From positions 1,953,443 to 2,017,442 of the forward strand of contig CAJNDT010001001.1 in assembly GCA_905221615.1 (NCBI GenBank): a stretch of DNA of 64,000 nucleotides. The letters run 5' to 3'. The notes beneath the pieces are model-generated. The model was not told the origin of the DNA. It saw only the letters and a list, made by a program, of their open reading frames with translations, and did not search any database. Both the position numbers and the translations under genes were made by a program. This stretch comes from Symbiodinium sp. CCMP2592. Taxonomy: Eukaryota > Sar > Dinophyceae > Suessiales > Symbiodiniaceae. Positions within the stretch are counted from its first letter, which is position 1. Every line of letters begins with the position of its first letter. This document shows positions 1,986-60,536 of the stretch, one piece after another.

Positions 1986-2321
1986 GAAACCAGGTTTGGC
2001 AGCGACCTTTTCCCCTTTGACATTAAAGAAAGTGTGAAGCCAATCGAAAGGCCTTAGCATAGTGTATAGGTGCACCCTGATCATATCCTAGGAAGAGCAC
2101 TGACCTTTGGTGCCGACCAGGGCATTTTAGGATTTTCTGTTTTTGCAAATTTCCGGGTTCAAGCTTTTGGCGTGTTGCTGTAGGATCAAGGGTACAGGGT
2201 CTCGAGTACGACATGTACCCTAAGAGCGTTCAACCCTGACTTACCGTGCAAGGGTGCTTCATACAGGCGTATGCCCATAGGCTCCATAGGTCCTTTTAAG
2301 AATCCTGGCCAGAATCCTATA

Positions 2322-10474: not shown

Positions 10475-10594
10475 ACCTTAAGGATTAATCACATGTGAAC
10501 CCTGAAAGGGCTTAAGCTTCATATACCATACAGGGATTCATAGTATATGGGCAAAAACAGCCCTATACTTTTAAGGGTCATGTGGTCCTTTAGG
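10475..10594. repeat. Family B fold-back element, reverse orientation
   Basis: Diverged: CCTTAAGGATTAATCACATG...GGGTCATGTGGTCCTTTAGG with the central TACCATACAGGGATTCATAG block. No exon is visible at its borders. Confidence 0.6.
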
Positions 10595-12045: not shown

Positions 12046-13960
12046 AACCTGAGAATAGCCTTGAACGAAAAGTTAGTTCAATTTACCTCGACACCTCTAC
12101 ACCCTAAACATACAAAGCCAGACATATACAATCCTTAAAGGAACGTTTGTAGAACCCTGATAGGAACTCCGTAAGAAGCCTTGCAGCCCTCCCACCCTGA
12201 ACCTTGAAATCCAAAACCTCTAACAGGCCTCCCACAAGAGCCCTTCAAGAACCCTATGTACTCTTAAGGGATTCCTTGGCATGAACTGCGAGCCCCAAAA
12301 CGCAAGAAACCCTCTAATCCTTGAAAGCCCTCCTAAATAAGCGGCTTTGTGCCCTACATCCAGAAGCCCTCAGCCCTGAACCCCGAAGTACTAGATAGGC
12401 CCCTGGAGCTAAGAGCACTAAGCCGTCATGTACAGAACCCTGGGGATCAGCATAGCCCAAAAGCCTTATATAGTATGGTCTTTGGGCCCAAAAGTCTGAA
12501 TATATGAGTCCTTAGATCCCTAGGGGAGGCCGGAATAGTTACTAACATTGGGCCTTTGGCTTCCTTAGGGTTGGGGTTTCCGGCTTCGGGTTCAGGTTTG
12601 GGGCTTCAGGTCTATGGCTCATACAACTATATACAACTATACTGTACATCAAACCACTACTCTACATGCTATGGCCCTGTACATCACAGAATCCCTGTGA
12701 ACCCTTTTATAAGGAACTAAGGAACCCTTACAGGAGCCGTACCCCCTAATTTTCGGAAACTCCCAAAGCCTAAGCCCCATAGGTCTTTTATAGGATCCCC
12801 TCACGGAGCCCTTACAGGATCCCTTTAAAGGAGCCCCTAGATTTTCGGAAACTCCCACATGACAGCACCCAAAAAGGCCGTGAGATCTGACAGCTCTAAG
12901 GTCTCCTATCCTGAGGCCTAGTAGTAGAGTAGGTAACCTTTAACCTTTTTTGGGGTAATATAGTCCCTTTAAGCCAAGAAGGGCACCCTATTATTCCTAG
13001 GTTTCGGGGTTAGGGCTTATACGGCTTAAAAGGTTTAATTAGGGTTATGGGGTTTAGGGTTATAAGGCTATAGGGTTTAGGGTTATAGGGTTATATATAG
13101 GGTTTAGGGTTAAGGTTCGGGCTTTTTGGGTCTTGAACGGCTTTGGGTTTGGGGGTGCATCATGACGGCATTAGGGTTTCGGAGTTTAGGGTTTGGGGTT
13201 GAGGTGTTTAATTAAGGCGTTTAGGAGTTTGGGGTTTGGCGTTGAGGTGTTTAGGGCGTTTAGGGTTTAGGGGTCTAAGGTATAGGGCTGAGGGTCTACG
13301 GGTTCTCGGGTTTAGGGTTGAGGGATTGAGGAATTGAGGCTTTAGGGTTTAGTTGGTGCAAGGCCAGGCAGCCCCATGACACCGACCACAAGGTCCATGT
13401 GGCAGCCTCGGCTTTGCTGCTTCTACGGCTTAGGGCTAGATGGGGGGGTGTAAACGGGCTTTCAGGGTTCATTGTAATGTCTTTAAACAGTGCACCGGTG
13501 TAAAAGGGCTTTCAGGGTGAATCCTTAAACAGTGAACCCTAACAAGTCTATAGAAGGAATTCATACGGCACTCTAGGGTTTTTTTCGGATCTGCATTTTG
13601 GGCATTCAGCATGTGTTTCGGCATCATCTTAACTTTCTCGTCTGCTGAACATCCTGGGTTTGGGGAACACCTCCGTAATAGAGTATCATGTTTGCTTTTC
13701 AACCTTTTGGGATACGATGATTCCTATATCATCCCAAACTTTTCGGTATTAGAGCTCCCCGAAACAGGACATGCGCACCTTCGATCCTAACAGACCCAAG
13801 CACCCGGCAAGTAGGACACGTGGCCCGAGCCCTGTGCATAGCAATTTCAACCACCTTTAAGAGGACTCAAACAATGGGACCCTGATCGTAAGGAGCAGCC
13901 CATTATAATCATAGTACAGTATACCCCCAAACCTTATTCTGATTATTTACGCCCCTACAT
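12046..13960. other. Filler-rich stretch, no gene seen
   Basis: AACCCT-rich sequence to 12600, two half copies of family D in the same orientation (ACCCCCTAATTTTCGGAAACTCCC near 12742 and GATTTTCGGAAACTCCC near 12840), a TTTAGGG-like array at 13010-13345, and a partial family C element at about 13880-13965. Frames of 70-77 codons at 12649-12858 and 13469-13702 run through repeats. Confidence 0.45.
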
Positions 13961-15750: not shown

Positions 15751-15858
15751 TTAAGGACGACATGTATCCTGACAAGGGTCTTAAGGTTCAGTTCCCCTAT
15801 AAAGGGTTCATAGTATAAGGCCATAAGCACCTGTTGTTAAGGGTCGTTCGTCCTTAAA
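15751..15858. repeat. Family B fold-back element, reverse orientation, diverged
   Basis: TTAAGGACGACATG...GGGTCGTTCGTCCTTAA with the GGGTTCATAGTATAAGG core. It lies about 50 bases after the island at 15651-15699. Confidence 0.55.
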
Positions 15859-18078: not shown

Positions 18079-18083
18079 GAACC
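18079..18083. other. Target site duplication, left (GAACC)
   Basis: GAACC directly precedes the outer TG of the LTR and is repeated at 27828-27832 directly after the outer CA. Confidence 0.8.
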
Positions 18084-28258: not shown

Positions 28259-28369
28259 CCTGAAGGACCAAATGACCCGTAAAAGTATAGGGCCCTATAC
28301 CCATATACTATGAATCCCCAAATGGTATATGAACCTTCAACCCTTTTAGGGTTCATTTCGTCCTTTAGG
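28259..28369. repeat. Family B fold-back element
   Basis: Well-preserved: CCTGAAGGACCAAATGACCC...GGGTTCATTTCGTCCTTTAGG with TATACCCATATACTATGAATCC in the centre. No exon is seen on either side. Confidence 0.8.
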
Positions 28370-31022: not shown

Positions 31023-31119
31023 TCCTTAAGGAACAAATGAACCTTAACAGTAGTGGCCCTCTACCCTTGGTATATGAACCTTATATGAAACCCTTCCGGG
31101 GTTCACGTCGTTCTTAAGG
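31023..31119. repeat. Family B fold-back element, diverged
   Basis: CCTTAAGGAACAAATGAACC...GGGGTTCACGTCGTTCTTAAGG. Confidence 0.55.
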
Positions 31120-32478: not shown

Positions 32479-32980
32479 CTCCAGGAGTACTCCAAGAAAG
32501 AAGGAGCAGCTGCTGGACTTGTGCACTGGCGAAGCAGCCCTTCCGGTTCCTGAGCAAATGACCCTTAAAAGTATAGGGCCCTATACCCATCTACTATGAA
32601 TCCCTATATGGTATATGAACCTTAAACCCTTTTAAGGTTTATTTCGTCCTTAAGGTTGCTGCTGCACGAGGTGACCCGATGCTGGAGCGGCGACCAGAAG
32701 ATTGGGACATGTGCCGACAGAGCGGATGCGATGCTCTCCACCTGAAGCACAAGCCGCCCACGGCGACAACTCGCGCACTGAAGCAGCAAGTTCTCAGAGG
32801 AGATCAATGTGAGGTGGGCCCTGCGCAAAAAGATCCCAAGTTGGCACCGGCCGTCAACAGCATGTGCTGGCAGCAGCGTCCAAGAGCATGGGATCTAATT
32901 ATCTCGGGCTTCCAAGGTGAGCTTCACGTGGCGAGCTGGCGGTATCGATCCAATAAGACCTGCAGCACATTGTCCGGTAG
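32479..32980 (+). CDS. Exons around a family B element
   Basis: A first exon after CCCCTCCAG|G ends near 32550. A long open frame resumes at 32656 after CCTTAAG|G, the element's right end, and runs to beyond 32980 with LERRPEDWDMCRQSG and ALKQQVLRGDQCE. Two alternative frames both join across the element (for example LDLCTGEAALPVP or AKQPFRFL on the left). Coding character is good, exact frame undecided, function unknown. Confidence 0.35.
32549..32655. repeat. Family B fold-back element (introner candidate)
   Basis: Left end reads CCTGAGCAAATGACCC, missing the usual GGAC; right end GTCCTTAAG|G. It separates two coding-like segments on the + strand. Confidence 0.75.
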
Positions 32981-33734: not shown

Positions 33735-33947
33735 CTGCAAAGGGAAACTACTGTTGATGACATAAATCCTGCATTACCCATAATAGGGAATATACCATAA
33801 TTCCCATAGTTTAGGGTCCTTAAGGCAATGCAGGGTTTTATATCATCAACAGTACCCGATTACCATGCCGTCCTGGCGGTGGCCTATGGCATTCTCGAGA
33901 AACTGCAGAGTCGGTGCATCCGAGTTCGTGGAACCGTCCTTCCCTTA
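33735..33947 (+). CDS. Exons flanking a family A element
   Basis: Left of the element the frame ends AKGNY plus T; to the right TA completes a Leu codon and the frame continues PDYHAVLAVAYGILEKLQSR, then IRVRGTVLPL up to the family B element at 33948. Excision as GT (33753) to AG (33852) keeps phase. The left exon start is not fixed. The right exon is strongly protein-like. Function unknown. Confidence 0.4.
33753..33850. repeat. Family A fold-back element (introner candidate)
   Basis: GTTGATGACATAAATCCTGC...GTTTTATATCATCAAC, followed by AG|TACCCG. Here ACTACT|GT gives the donor. Confidence 0.8.
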
Positions 33948-34054
33948 AGGACGACATGAACCCTGAAAGGGTTTAAGGTTCATATACCATATAGGGATTC
34001 ATAGTATATGGGCAAAAAAGGCTCCTACTTTTCAGGGTCATTTGGTCCTTCAGG
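33943..34054. repeat. Family B fold-back element, reverse orientation
   Basis: CCTTAAG|GACGACATGAACC...CATTTGGTCCTTCAG|G. In this orientation too the ends supply a GA donor and an AG acceptor. Coding-like sequence lies on both sides, although my simplest frames do not join directly. Confidence 0.8.
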
Positions 34055-34174: not shown

Positions 34175-34287
34175 CCTGAAGGACCAAATGACCCTTAAAA
34201 GTAGGGGCCCTATGCCCACCCCCTTCTGTGAATCCCTATATGGTATAAAATTCTTAAACCCTTTTAGGCTTCATTTCGTCCTTAAGG
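34175..34287. repeat. Family B fold-back element
   Basis: CCTGAAGGACCAAATGACCC...GCTTCATTTCGTCCTTAAGG; the centre is altered (GCCCACCCCCTTCTGTG). Confidence 0.75.
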
Positions 34288-35962: not shown

Positions 35963-36160
35963 GAGCGTTTTCTGACTACCCTTGAAGCGCTAAACGCGAA
36001 AGTCTTCCTGAAGGACCAAAAAACTAGGGGCCCTATACCCATGTACTATGAACCCACATATGGTTATGAACCTTGAACCTTCTAGGGTTCTAATTTCGTC
36101 CTTAAGTAAACTCAAGCGGTTACCAGGATGAGCCAATCACCAAGCCCTTCCTGCTGTGCG
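35963..36160 (+). CDS. Two exons interrupted by a family B element
   Basis: Exon 1 (35963-36013) follows TTCAAG|G and reads ERFLTTLEALNAKVFLK. Exon 2 (36127-36160) follows GTTACCAG|G and reads DEPITKPFLLC plus one base before a GTGCGTG donor. Phase is 0 across the junction. The intron (36014-36126) starts GA inside the family B element and ends 20 bases past it. Unknown protein. Confidence 0.45.
36007..36106. repeat. Family B fold-back element (introner candidate)
   Basis: CCTGAAG|GACCAAAAAACTAGGGG...CTAATTTCGTCCTTAAG. The element's own AG is followed by TAAAC, which would stop the frame; the downstream CCAG restores it. Confidence 0.75.
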
Positions 36161-38336: not shown

Positions 38337-38715
38337 CTGCGGGAGACGAAGGAGAAGCTTGCTCTCTCCGAAAGGCTGCTAAAGGACGGGGACTTCTGTT
38401 TTCAAGCAGGGCGCCAGAAGCGCTCAGCACTCCTGTGGTCGGAGTACTACCAGGAGGACGCGCCTTGCTGCGCCTTCTTTGCCACCGAAGCTTTCTCTGC
38501 CACAGAAGGACACGAAGGCGAAGAAGAGGGCGCGCAGCAGCACCTCAAGGACCAAATGATCCTTAGAGGTATAGGGGCCCCATACCCATATACTATGAAT
38601 CCCTATATATGGCTATATGGTATATGAACCTTAAACCCTTTTAGGGTTCATTTCTTCTTTAAGGCAGTGGCTTGTCCGGTGGCCGAAGGGTCCACCCGGA
38701 GGCGGGCCCGCGGGT
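38337..38715 (+). CDS. Two exons interrupted by a family B element
   Basis: Exon 1 (38337-38549) follows ATGCCCAG|C and encodes LRETKEKLALSERLLKDGDF, a Cys/Phe/Ala-rich middle, then an acidic segment ending AQQHLK. Exon 2 begins 38664 after TTTAAG|G and reads AVACPVAEGSTRRRARG before a GT donor. Phase 0 on both sides; excision is GA to AG exactly at the element ends. The N-terminal part looks like coiled coil. This is one of the longest host exons in the window. Unknown family. Confidence 0.45.
38543..38663. repeat. Family B fold-back element (introner candidate)
   Basis: CCTCAAG|GACCAAATGATCC...TTCATTTCTTCTTTAAG|G. Carries a small internal duplication TATATGGCTATATGG. Confidence 0.8.
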
Positions 38716-45860: not shown

Positions 45861-46424
45861 TGAGAGGGCCAATAGGAATCGATAATCGATAACGTAGGCA
45901 TAGGGTTTAAGGTCATCGGGTTTGTCATTCAGACCCACAGAGCTCGATTTGGCTTGTGGATGCGAGTAGTAGCAGTGGCCCAGCTGAAGGAAGAATTGTA
46001 CCCAGAATGGGTTTTCAGGTTCAGGTTATCATATTGGGGATTCATAGTGCAAGGATCATGGGGCATGGCAGAGGCTACCCTGGGTTTTCCCTTTGGGCAG
46101 GCCTTCTGAGCTTGCTGTATTCGAAATTTAGAAGGGCAGAAGCCTCTGAAATATGCAATCCCTGGGTAATGGCTGGTAGTATACGTGGGCTGTGCAAGTG
46201 CAAGCTTTGACGGGTCAGTGCTCGAGAAACAAGTAGTGTCGGTGCCTAACACTTACCATGAATAGCATTCCTTGGTAGACCCGGAAAACTATGCTCCTTA
46301 GTCAGGTCCGATAGTACCACCTTCTAACAAACGTTTCAGTGGACCTTTCATACTCTTCTCTGATGGTTCTTCGGAAGTACCAAATAGTACACATTGTAGC
46401 TTTGAAGTGGCTCATGTTTAGGTA

Positions 46425-47531: not shown

Positions 47532-47964
47532 GTGTGGAATAATCCAATCGCTGGTACGATTCATCTCGCCGCGGTGGTACGATTCGGAGCAGAGCCAGCT
47601 GGGAGTTGCCGAAAATAGGGGACCCTACTACAGTAACCTAAATAGTAGGATCCTTATTATAAGGACCCCCCAAAATGGTACCCCTAGTTTTCCGAAACTC
47701 CCATTTAGTTGGCAACATGAGTCGCGCGGCAAAGGTTCCTAAGTGCTTCTGAGACACGGAACTCATCAGACCTGACATTGCAGAGCTACAAGGATTTGGG
47801 ATACGTGTTTATAGGGCATGAGGACCTCAAGGACGAAATGAACCCTAAAAGGGTTTAAGGTCCATATACCATATAGGGATTCATAGTTTATGGGTATAGG
47901 GCCCTATATTTTTTCGGGTCATTTGGTCCTTCAGGGACGCGTGACGGTTGCACAGCCTGCGCTG
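47532..47964 (+). CDS. Four exons interrupted by a family D and a family B element
   Basis: Exon 47532-47602 (after GATGGAG|G) reads CGIIQSLVRF then ISPRWYDSEQSQL plus G. The family D element (47603-47708, GA...AG) follows. Exon 47709-47734 completes a Val codon and reads GNMSRAAK. A 49-bp GT-AG intron follows. Exon 47784-47831 reads SYKDLGYVFIGHEDLK. The family B element (47832-47934, GA...AG) follows. Exon 47935-47964 reads GRVTVAQPAL and ends at a GC donor. Every junction keeps phase and no stop intervenes. Function unknown. Confidence 0.5.
47600..47704. repeat. Family D fold-back element (introner candidate)
   Basis: GGGAGTTGCCGAAAATAGGGG...CCTAGTTTTCCGAAACTCCC, then ATTTAG|TTGG supplies the acceptor; donor GG|GAGTTG. 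Confidence 0.8.
47825..47935. repeat. Family B fold-back element, reverse orientation (introner candidate)
   Basis: CCTCAAG|GACGAAATGAACCC...CATTTGGTCCTTCAG|GGACG. TCA(A/G)GGACG appears at both edges. It works as an intron in the opposite orientation to the copy at 38543. Confidence 0.85.
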
Positions 47965-52575: not shown

Positions 52576-52679
52576 TATATCGATCCTTGTCCAATATGCC
52601 CATCTTTGGGATCGTTAAAGGGATTCGGGTTTGGGGTCTATGGCATTACTCACGAAATCGACACCAGAAGGGTTTGCCG

Positions 52680-52757
52680 GTTCAATGGTCATGTGGGGCT
52701 TCATAGTATGAGGGTATAAGGCCCCTACTGTTCAAGGGCCATGTCGTCCTGCAGGGA
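52680..52757. repeat. Family B element, strongly diverged
   Basis: GGCTTCATAGTATGAGGGTATAAGG...GGGCCATGTCGTCCTGCAGG keeps the family core and right arm only. Confidence 0.4.
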
Positions 52758-58348: not shown

Positions 58349-58443
58349 CTGAAGGACCAAATGACCCGTAAAAGTAGGGGCCCTATACCCATATACTATG
58401 CGTCCCTATATGGCATATGAACCTTTAACCCTTTTAGGGTTCC
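58349..58443. repeat. Family B fold-back element, right arm truncated
   Basis: CTGAAGGACCAAATGACCC...CTTTTAGGGTTCC, lacking the CATTTCGTCCTTAAGG arm. Confidence 0.65.
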
Positions 58444-60536
58444 CTGAGCATGGGCTCGCAGCTTTGGCGTGGGTTTCGGCCAAGCTGTGAGTCCATTGGG
58501 GACTAGAACAGCTAGGTAACTAGGTGTTCGCGTGGGTGATTCTTGATGTGGGCACAAGAAGGCGCCTCTCTTGTTGTCATAGAAGGACCGAGAAATGGGA
58601 CCCGGATTTCGATCTTAAGTCCCAAATCTGAACCACCTAACTTCGATTGTTACTGCCCCAGACTCAGTAACAGTTGGAAAAGTGTTTTTTAGTATAGATA
58701 CTACCTTAGCCCTCATTGGTAAGGATGGTTAGATATGGTTGGACCGAGGGCAGTACCCGAACAGATGTAAGTTAAGTGACATTCCTTACTTAACTTACCT
58801 TGGGCACTACTTACCTTGGGCTAGTAGGGAATGGATCAATGGGGTAGAATTATAACCACTGTTACTACCATTCTTCCTTTCCCTACAAACCAAAGGTAAG
58901 TTAAGAGACTTTTGAGCTTCGGCCTCCTTGTGTTTGTGATGTTCAGCTGCCAAACCCAACCCAGATCCGACATTCCAAACCCTGGAGCCAATGCACCTGA
59001 ATACTAAACAACATGGTTTAGGGTTTAGGGACTTGTTTGGGGTTCCTTGATATTGTCTTCGTATATACCTCTTTGACAAGGTAGGATTTTAGGGGCCACT
59101 GATATGAACCCAACAAAGGAACCCTAAACCGCTCAATCTATAGCAACCCTGAACCCCTAAACCCATAAGACTAGGACCCAGAGTAAGCCCTTATTCCCTT
59201 TTTAAGGTGTAGGTTCCGTTATAGCACCCTGTAATGAAATCATAAGGCCTCCACTAAATGGTATAACAGTACCCTTCGGGTTTTTGTGTTTCAGCTAACC
59301 GGTTGTAGGTGTTCAGAGGTTGTGAACGTACAGGGTTTTCGTTCATGATCAGGACGGTCTAGGACCATGTTTTGAGCTTCTTCAGCTTAGGGTTTACAGC
59401 ACTAGTTGTTTAAGCGCTTCTTTGTACACACACACACACACACAGAGTATAGCATAGTGCCCCAAACCCCGAGTCTAAGTATGAAGGCCCTGACAGTGAG
59501 GAGTCTTTTTCGGGATGGCCCCACCTACCTTCATCCATGTACCGGTTCCATTGATACCATGATTGCAGGTCTAATCCCCCATGTAACCCCCCGAATACTA
59601 GGACTCAAATAAGGAACCCTAACGGACGCCCAAGGTTTCTTAATCAGGCCCAGGGTTGCTTAATCAGGGTCCTACATTAGGTCATTTTTAGGATGGGTTT
59701 AGGGTTTAGGGGTTACCATACACAGGATGCTCTATGGGTAGTTCTTTATATTTGGGGTCCCCTTTTGGGGTCCTGCCTGAAAGGGTGTAGTTTCGGGACT
59801 TAGGAAGAGACACTACTTTAGAGAGCTTAATGGTTCTTGCGTTTGCGTGAGGGATGGTGCAATTTACGGTTTACGGTTTCGATCGAAACCTTTGGGCTTA
59901 GGGCGTAAGGGTTGAAGGTCAGGGTTTAGTAATTAGGGTTCAGGGTCCCGGTTCAGGTTTTGGAGTTTAGGGCTGAGGGTATGTCAAGTGTTCGTCCTGG
60001 CGGAGTCGCAGCAGGCCAGTTGCAAAAGGGCTGAGGGTATAGGGCTTAGGGTTTGGAGTTTAGGGTTCAGAGTTTAAGGTTTGTAATGTGCCTGCTACCC
60101 TGAATCCTAAAATGATGGTACTACTAGCTAACTAACTATTCACGGAACCCTCTTTATGTATATATATATGTATATGTCTGGGAATATAGAAGGGAGTAAG
60201 GAGGGACCTTCTAGTTTTGGCTCCGGGGCGGGCCTCCTGCCGGACGAGTTCATCGGCTGGAGGATCTTTGGGAAAGGGGGGGTTGGGCGGGTTGGGAAAA
60301 TTTAAGTTTCAGGTTTGTTTGGGCTTGCAATGATTTGAAAGGTTTAAAGTCGTAGAATTTCAAAGATAAAATCGGTTGAAAATGCTTAGATCTTGAATTC
60401 AGAAAGGATTGTGGGGTTCTCTAATAAATGGAAGCTCTTAAACTGCATACCCTAATCTTAAGCTCTAAACCCAAATCCTTGTAAACCCTAATATTGCAGA
60501 CCTGGCCAGGCTTGCCCGAGTGTAAAACTAGAAATC
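58444..60536. other. Filler-rich stretch, no gene seen
   Basis: TAAGTTAAG words at 58760-58900, TTTAGGG-like words from 59000, (CA)n at 59426-59443, more telomere-like words at 59690-60070. No protein-like frame. Confidence 0.4.

Follow-up and report, generated by a model that had tools for sequence, protein, structure and literature searches.

Family B, a repeat in the genome of Symbiodinium sp. CCMP2592, is a short non-autonomous foldback MITE of ~110 bp that is flanked by a 2-bp duplication of no fixed sequence. Behind a G of the host, the element seems rather likely to act as a GN...AG intron, such that the element and one copy of the duplication are excised exactly. A family B copy inside a gene would then probably be removed from the message as an intron. 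The GN-donor scheme is derived from reading-frame and codon evidence, chiefly that of two copies, L028 and L067, located outside the window, i.e., the whole stretch of 64,000 nucleotides that was analysed.

In the window, nhmmer with a profile made from 8 seeds revealed 12 strong and 2 weak copies. According to BLAST with the 38543 element and the profile search of the window, the strong copies span 10.5-58.4 kb and the weak copies lie at 2.2 and 46.0 kb, which bears out an earlier note on this DNA that had reported about a dozen copies over 10-58 kb. The first nhmmer table also lists weaker matches of the foldback elements on their own opposite strand. A second profile identified 14 copies in the window, compared with 5 (including a weak one) in 20 stretches of 10 kb taken at random from this genome; shuffled versions of these stretches contained none. 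The repeat therefore exists at a level well beyond chance, and its copies are enriched in the window. The density of 14 copies in 64 kb is ~8-9 times that of the random stretches (5 in 200 kb). The copies of the window and the excisions predicted from their sequence are as follows:

2202..2304, minus strand: weak diverged copy (E 4.5e-5; 25.5 bits with the second profile)
10476..10594, minus strand: copy with a TA duplication and a G before it (GTA)
15751..15857, minus strand: diverged copy, profile match
28259..28369, plus strand: copy in TTTAGGG-rich DNA, flanks TTA...TTA, a 3-bp match with no 2-bp match
31024..31119, plus strand: diverged copy with no 2-bp duplication
32549..32655, plus strand: copy with a shortened 5' tip and GTT before the element
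32546-32654, plus strand: predicted exact excision at the 32549 copy, GT...AG, leaving a 172-codon open frame
33943..34054, minus strand: copy with GAA...GAA flanks, a 3-bp match with no 2-bp match
34175..34287, plus strand: copy with an AA duplication and a G before it (GAA)
36007..36106, plus strand: copy with no visible duplication
38543..38664, plus strand: copy of 122 bp (common form 110 bp), with CA on both flanks and a G before (GCA)
38540..38663, plus strand: predicted intron of 124 nt, GC...AG, with GCA at each border
45984..46055, minus strand: weak partial copy (E 1.7e-5; 30.7 bits with the second profile)
47825..47935, minus strand: copy with a TC duplication and a G before it (GTC)
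47826-47938, minus strand: predicted exact excision at the 47825 copy, GT...AG
52651..52755, minus strand: copy whose 3' tip is lost, profile match
58349..58444, plus strand: copy whose 3' tip is lost, profile match

The source genome comprises 1,098 Mb in 5,383 contigs. A first look yielded 1,533 family B candidates, of which 40 were scored and 39 fetched, C358:1128643 being left out. In total, 60 copies were gathered, 46 of them full length and non-duplicate by flank. Four duplicates by flank were set aside, partial copies were omitted from the open-frame test, and copies below 60 bits were omitted from both the open-frame and the coding tests. Eleven copies are letter-for-letter identical and each occupies a different genome site, which indicates that the family spread recently. 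For most of the copies examined, the surrounding DNA is not recognisable as coding and is often TTTAGGG-rich.

Other repeats are present in the window. Many degenerate TTTAGGG/CCCTAAA-like runs occur between 8 and 60 kb, interspersed rather than terminal (repeat families such as D1-D9). Members of a second short interspersed family (CCCCAAAACCCTATTCTAATTATTGAGGCCCC-like; D17, D19) are found at 13894, 17226, 30352, 30627, 46816, 53878 and 54187. The segment 18080-27827 contains a minus-strand ORF of 3,025 codons with an RVT_2 domain, flanked by 276-bp copies at 18080 and 27552 that are 100% identical, and looks like a young Copia-type LTR retrotransposon.

The common form of family B is 110 bp long and reads CCTGAAGG...CCTTAAGG, or CCTGAAGGACC...GTCCTTAAGG when written with its full borders. 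Its ends form terminal inverted repeats (CCTGAAGGACCAAATGA versus TCATTTCGTCCTTAAGG). Since both tips read CCTNAAGG, an AG/G acceptor is possible at either end (here and below, slashes mark splice borders). At the tips, a 2-bp duplication is present in 33 of the 46 full non-duplicate copies, compared with 1-9 of 46 for the same match at eight other offsets, in which the 3' border was moved by 1-4 bases. The 13 copies without a 2-bp match include some with changed tips and two with 3-bp matches. Ten kinds of dinucleotide are duplicated: TA in nine copies, AA in six, TC and CA in four each, AC and TT in three each, and four others once each. A 3-bp duplication GNN, suggested by four window copies, was rejected; a 3-bp match was found in 11 of 46 copies with the 3' border placed one base inside. 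The common form folds into a hairpin along nearly its whole length (z -5.9), and three of four other forward-strand copies gave z values of -3.0, -4.8 and -7.4; the whole-hairpin fold of the 32549 copy is poor (z -1.97). The element is short and non-coding, has a high copy number and terminal inverted repeats, and is bordered by a duplication of constant length, all of which characterise MITEs. A search of the window against Rfam gave no match. MITEs of the Tc1/mariner type have a 2-bp duplication and short inverted repeats. Family B is like them in both features and unlike them in that its duplication is TA in only 9 of the 33 copies; assignment to Tc1/mariner by a TA duplication was therefore discarded.

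The proposed splicing scheme combines host and element sequences. On insertion into an exon after a G of the sense strand, this G and the duplicated dinucleotide would form a GN donor, and the AAG (or CAG) with which the element ends would be the acceptor. In the layout /GNN-CCTGAAGG...CTTAAG/GNN, excision of the element plus one copy of the duplication would restore the original frame exactly. The RNA hairpin may draw both splice sites together. Only G-preceded copies within coding sequence would serve as introns; the scheme thus predicts that spliced copies have a G directly ahead of the duplication.

Two copies outside the window argue for this scheme:

C2168:417874-417983, forward: L028 copy, coding on both sides only under exact excision
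C225:1146588-1146697, forward: L067 copy, coding on both sides over 20 codons under exact excision

Their predicted borders are GT...AG, namely /GTT..CAG/ and /GTG..AAG/, respectively. Coding was assessed with a score derived from 1,369 kinase codons, against a null of 5,700 random pseudo-insertions, from which L037 was excluded, 2,500 of its bases being N. Three frames were scored for each copy: exact excision, a control shift, and the join proposed in the earlier note (offset 2). At L028, the exact join over 50 codons per side scored 15.4 and 10.8, higher than all 5,700 random cases (best 8.6), and both other frames were negative. The first 20 downstream codons scored 2.5 in the exact frame versus -6.2 in the control frame and -9.8 in the frame of the earlier join. 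Over shorter spans L028 is weaker, with a p of 0.015 at 25 codons and a position outside the five best at 20. The joined product (...TSGYHSIQ/VYCLLTSW...) has a weak Dph6-like match (TIGR03679, E 0.025, 13.9 bits versus a cut-off of 197.3). Because its residues 49-123 match positions 49-121 of TIGR03679, the part upstream, which contains the junction, seems to have neither gained nor lost residues. The frame meets a stop soon past the Dph6-like stretch.

A pattern search for AG/GTN before the forward tip identified 10 places, nine of them new and the tenth L028. None of the nine passes the 50-codon test on both sides; L067 passes over shorter spans, seven are not coding-like on both sides, and L070 could not be delimited. 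Over 50 codons, the exact join of L067 scored -17.3 (p 0.31) with a strongly coding left side, a failure due to closure of the downstream frame after 24 codons. Over 20 codons per side, it scored 14.0 and 11.3, compared with 8.8 for the best of the 5,700 random cases, and the first 20 downstream codons scored 11.3 in the exact frame, 3.9 in the control frame and -4.5 in that of the earlier join. The single Pfam match of the joined product is HMG_CoA_synt_C (E 0.13). Tests over 25 and 20 codons were adopted after L067 had been read and were then run on all 57 delimited copies.

Among 98 cases (49 copies) scored over 50 codons per side, p < 0.02 was reached twice by exact excision, never by the control and once by the frame of the earlier join. 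Both exact cases represent the L028 copy, on the sense strand and as its antisense shadow; the sole case in the earlier frame is the 38543 copy on the antisense strand. Among 114 cases (57 copies), exact excision reached this level 2, 3 and 5 times at 50, 25 and 20 codons, respectively, the control frame 0, 1 and 3 times, and the earlier frame once at each length. Clear coding on both sides was found in 2 of the 57 copies, L028 and L067. At 25 codons, the exact joins with the best values are those of 38543, L067, L028, L020 and 32549; all five have a G before the duplication, a pattern seen after the fact and in a set that includes L067, which had been picked for that G. Overall, 10 of the 33 copies with a duplication have a G before it, close to the expectation of one in four, as would be the case if most copies lie outside exons.

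The G-preceded copies of the window are those at 38543, 47825, 32549, 34175 and 10476. For 38543, the p values of exact excision were 0.062, 0.0033 and 0.0021 at 50, 25 and 20 codons, and those of the control frame 0.0065 and 0.0111 at 25 and 20 codons. For 32549, they were 0.047, 0.036 and 0.013, with the control frame as good or better (0.036 at 25 codons and 0.0061 at 20). Judged by the shorter spans, these two copies are the better intron candidates, yet the control frame does about equally well. At 47825, exact excision had a p of 0.335. Pfam searches with L028, L020, L013 and the joins at 32549 and 38543 revealed nothing, and no family was found in the six frames of 28-43 kb or in two minus-strand frames of 43-58 kb, so that in these frames no window gene is anchored by homology.

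Introns of host genes were examined in kinases. A kinase search of the genome listed 137 matches, the best 131 of 1,390 candidates having been scored. Six split-domain kinase genes were read by eye, and the kinase sequence fixed the borders of four introns:

L062: kinase intron, GT-AG, with GTTT at both borders
L063: kinase intron, GA-AG
L065: second kinase intron, GA-AG, with GATT at both borders; the first intron could not be resolved by eye
L066: kinase intron, GC-AG, with GC at both borders

These four introns show that the form /GN...AG/GN recurs in this genome. The six split kinase genes contain no family B copies. The remaining two of the six are disrupted in different ways. At L061 (C949:8780-9800), the kinase domain is broken by an insert between near-identical 23-bp direct repeats, which would themselves provide GC and AG splice sites; by eye, the insert resembles the second short family. 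At L064 (C4446:375250-376150), part of the kinase coding sequence is repeated in inverted orientation and breaks the frame, which reflects either a true foldback or an error of assembly. Among the 137 listed matches, which are the best candidates, many span nearly the whole domain in one open frame, in contrast to the intron-dense genes of Symbiodiniaceae given in Table 1 of PMC7789003.

That family B is an ordinary MITE without a splicing role, whose copies in coding sequence lie in pseudogenes or are spliced through chance host sites, is less likely and yet deserves serious weight. Most copies examined reside in DNA, often rich in TTTAGGG, whose codon scores are not those of coding sequence, the frequency of G before the duplication is close to one in four, and the frame of L028 soon hits a stop. 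Open-frame counts are also flat across the joins: among 94 copy-by-strand cases, 14 were open for at least 40 codons on both sides after exact excision and 14 after the control shift. Against an ordinary MITE, the coding signal of L028 and L067 resumes in precisely the frame that clean excision would yield, and the GT..AG borders are like those of the host introns. Removal through the stem, as in euglenids, is extremely improbable. Euglenid-type non-spliceosomal introns are removed through their stem rather than by a splice-site consensus, and the common form of family B indeed folds as one long stem; its borders, however, fit GN..AG, as do those of the four kinase introns.

The earlier note had placed a GA donor at AAG/GAC in one tip and a CTTAAG/ or CTTCAG/ acceptor in the other, to be used in both orientations, which we now regard as improbable. 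GA-AG introns do exist in this genome (L063, L065), and AAG/GAC can occur at both tips: it is in the consensus, whereas by eye just half of the strong window copies (6 of 12) have AAGGAC preserved at the two ends. The copy named as the example, 38543, lacks it, since its 3' tip reads CCTTAAAGAA on the other strand. A join from the GA donor would retain 10 bases (7 + 1 of the element and 2 of the duplication) and thereby shift the reading frame; in L028 and L067, the codon scores indicate that the exon downstream would then be read in the wrong frame. Extra bases in the message have been described for published introners in some cases (PMC9860276, legend to Fig. 2F). The in-frame joins cited in support carry little information, because joins open on both sides are no commoner in the earlier frame (7 of the 94 cases) than in the exact or the frame-shifted one. 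At 38543, an ORF of at least 118 codons crosses each of the three joins tried (300 nt per side). At 47825, the claimed in-frame join was not confirmed, the downstream side on the minus strand being open for only 12, 4 or 18 codons; on the plus strand, the longest open runs in the flanks are 34 codons on the left and 29 on the right. The same copy had been presented as the case of opposite orientation. The ORF adjoining it is likewise on the minus strand, so that relative to its ORF it runs as 38543 does and gives no evidence for use in both orientations. Inverted copies inside genes were not encountered; the tip pattern search covered the forward tip, through which L067 had been sought, and L067 and L028 are both forward-oriented. 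What endures of the inverted-repeat intron is a mobile element with inverted repeats, possibly an intron, with an acceptor AG in its tip; the GA donor inside the element is not supported.

Use in either orientation can nevertheless be formulated within the GN-donor scheme. The tips are nearly palindromic and each ends in AG/G, and we tentatively suggest that one MITE might be a working intron in either orientation, given a G before the duplication on the sense strand. The inverted-tip pattern for this reading is AGGTN followed by CCTTAAGGACGAAATGA, as well as, for either tip, the variants with AGGC or AGGA. A narrow literature search found no paper that joins introners, either orientation and splicing.

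Roy and co-workers are said to have described, in 2023, many recent introner families in Polarella glacialis and other dinoflagellates. A review likewise refers to many recent introner families in dinoflagellates (PMC11453091), and introners in further dinoflagellates are the subject of PMC10666404 and PMC11114475. In the Symbiodinium microadriaticum introner, the donor derives from the duplication and the acceptor is carried by the element (PMC9860276, legend to Fig. 2B). Family B resembles this introner, as described in PMC9860276, in its terminal inverted repeats and target-site duplication and, under the proposed scheme, in an element-borne 3' splice site and a duplication-derived 5' splice site; the two differ, in a comparison of descriptions, in that the duplication is 4 bp in S. 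microadriaticum versus 2 bp plus a host G in family B. A duplication-derived donor combined with an element-borne acceptor is already published as a mechanism, to which family B would add a member. The introner elements of Amoebophrya A25 and A120 are short introns with terminal inverted repeats of 8-20 nt, direct repeats at the borders and a predicted hairpin (PMC7789003). Family B shares with them the short length, the inverted repeats at the ends, the short direct repeats at the borders and the predicted hairpin, and its TTAAGG is similar by eye to the A25 inverted repeats, which begin with TTA and two purines. According to the same source, the direct repeats of Amoebophrya comprise 3-5 nt, versus 2 bp in family B, more than 65% of the A25 and A120 introns are neither GT, GC nor GA-AG, unlike the introns of the family B scheme, and the genomes are 116 and 115.5 Mb in size, versus 1,098 Mb here.

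Family B represents a precisely delimited, recently active introner-like family whose donor would need one host base beyond the duplication. It could link the repeated GN borders of host introns to transposon insertion. Symmetric tips that let one element serve both orientations would, if shown, be new. Should that reading be true, about one insertion in four per orientation would be intron-ready, and the repeated GN borders of host introns would be the footprint of such elements.
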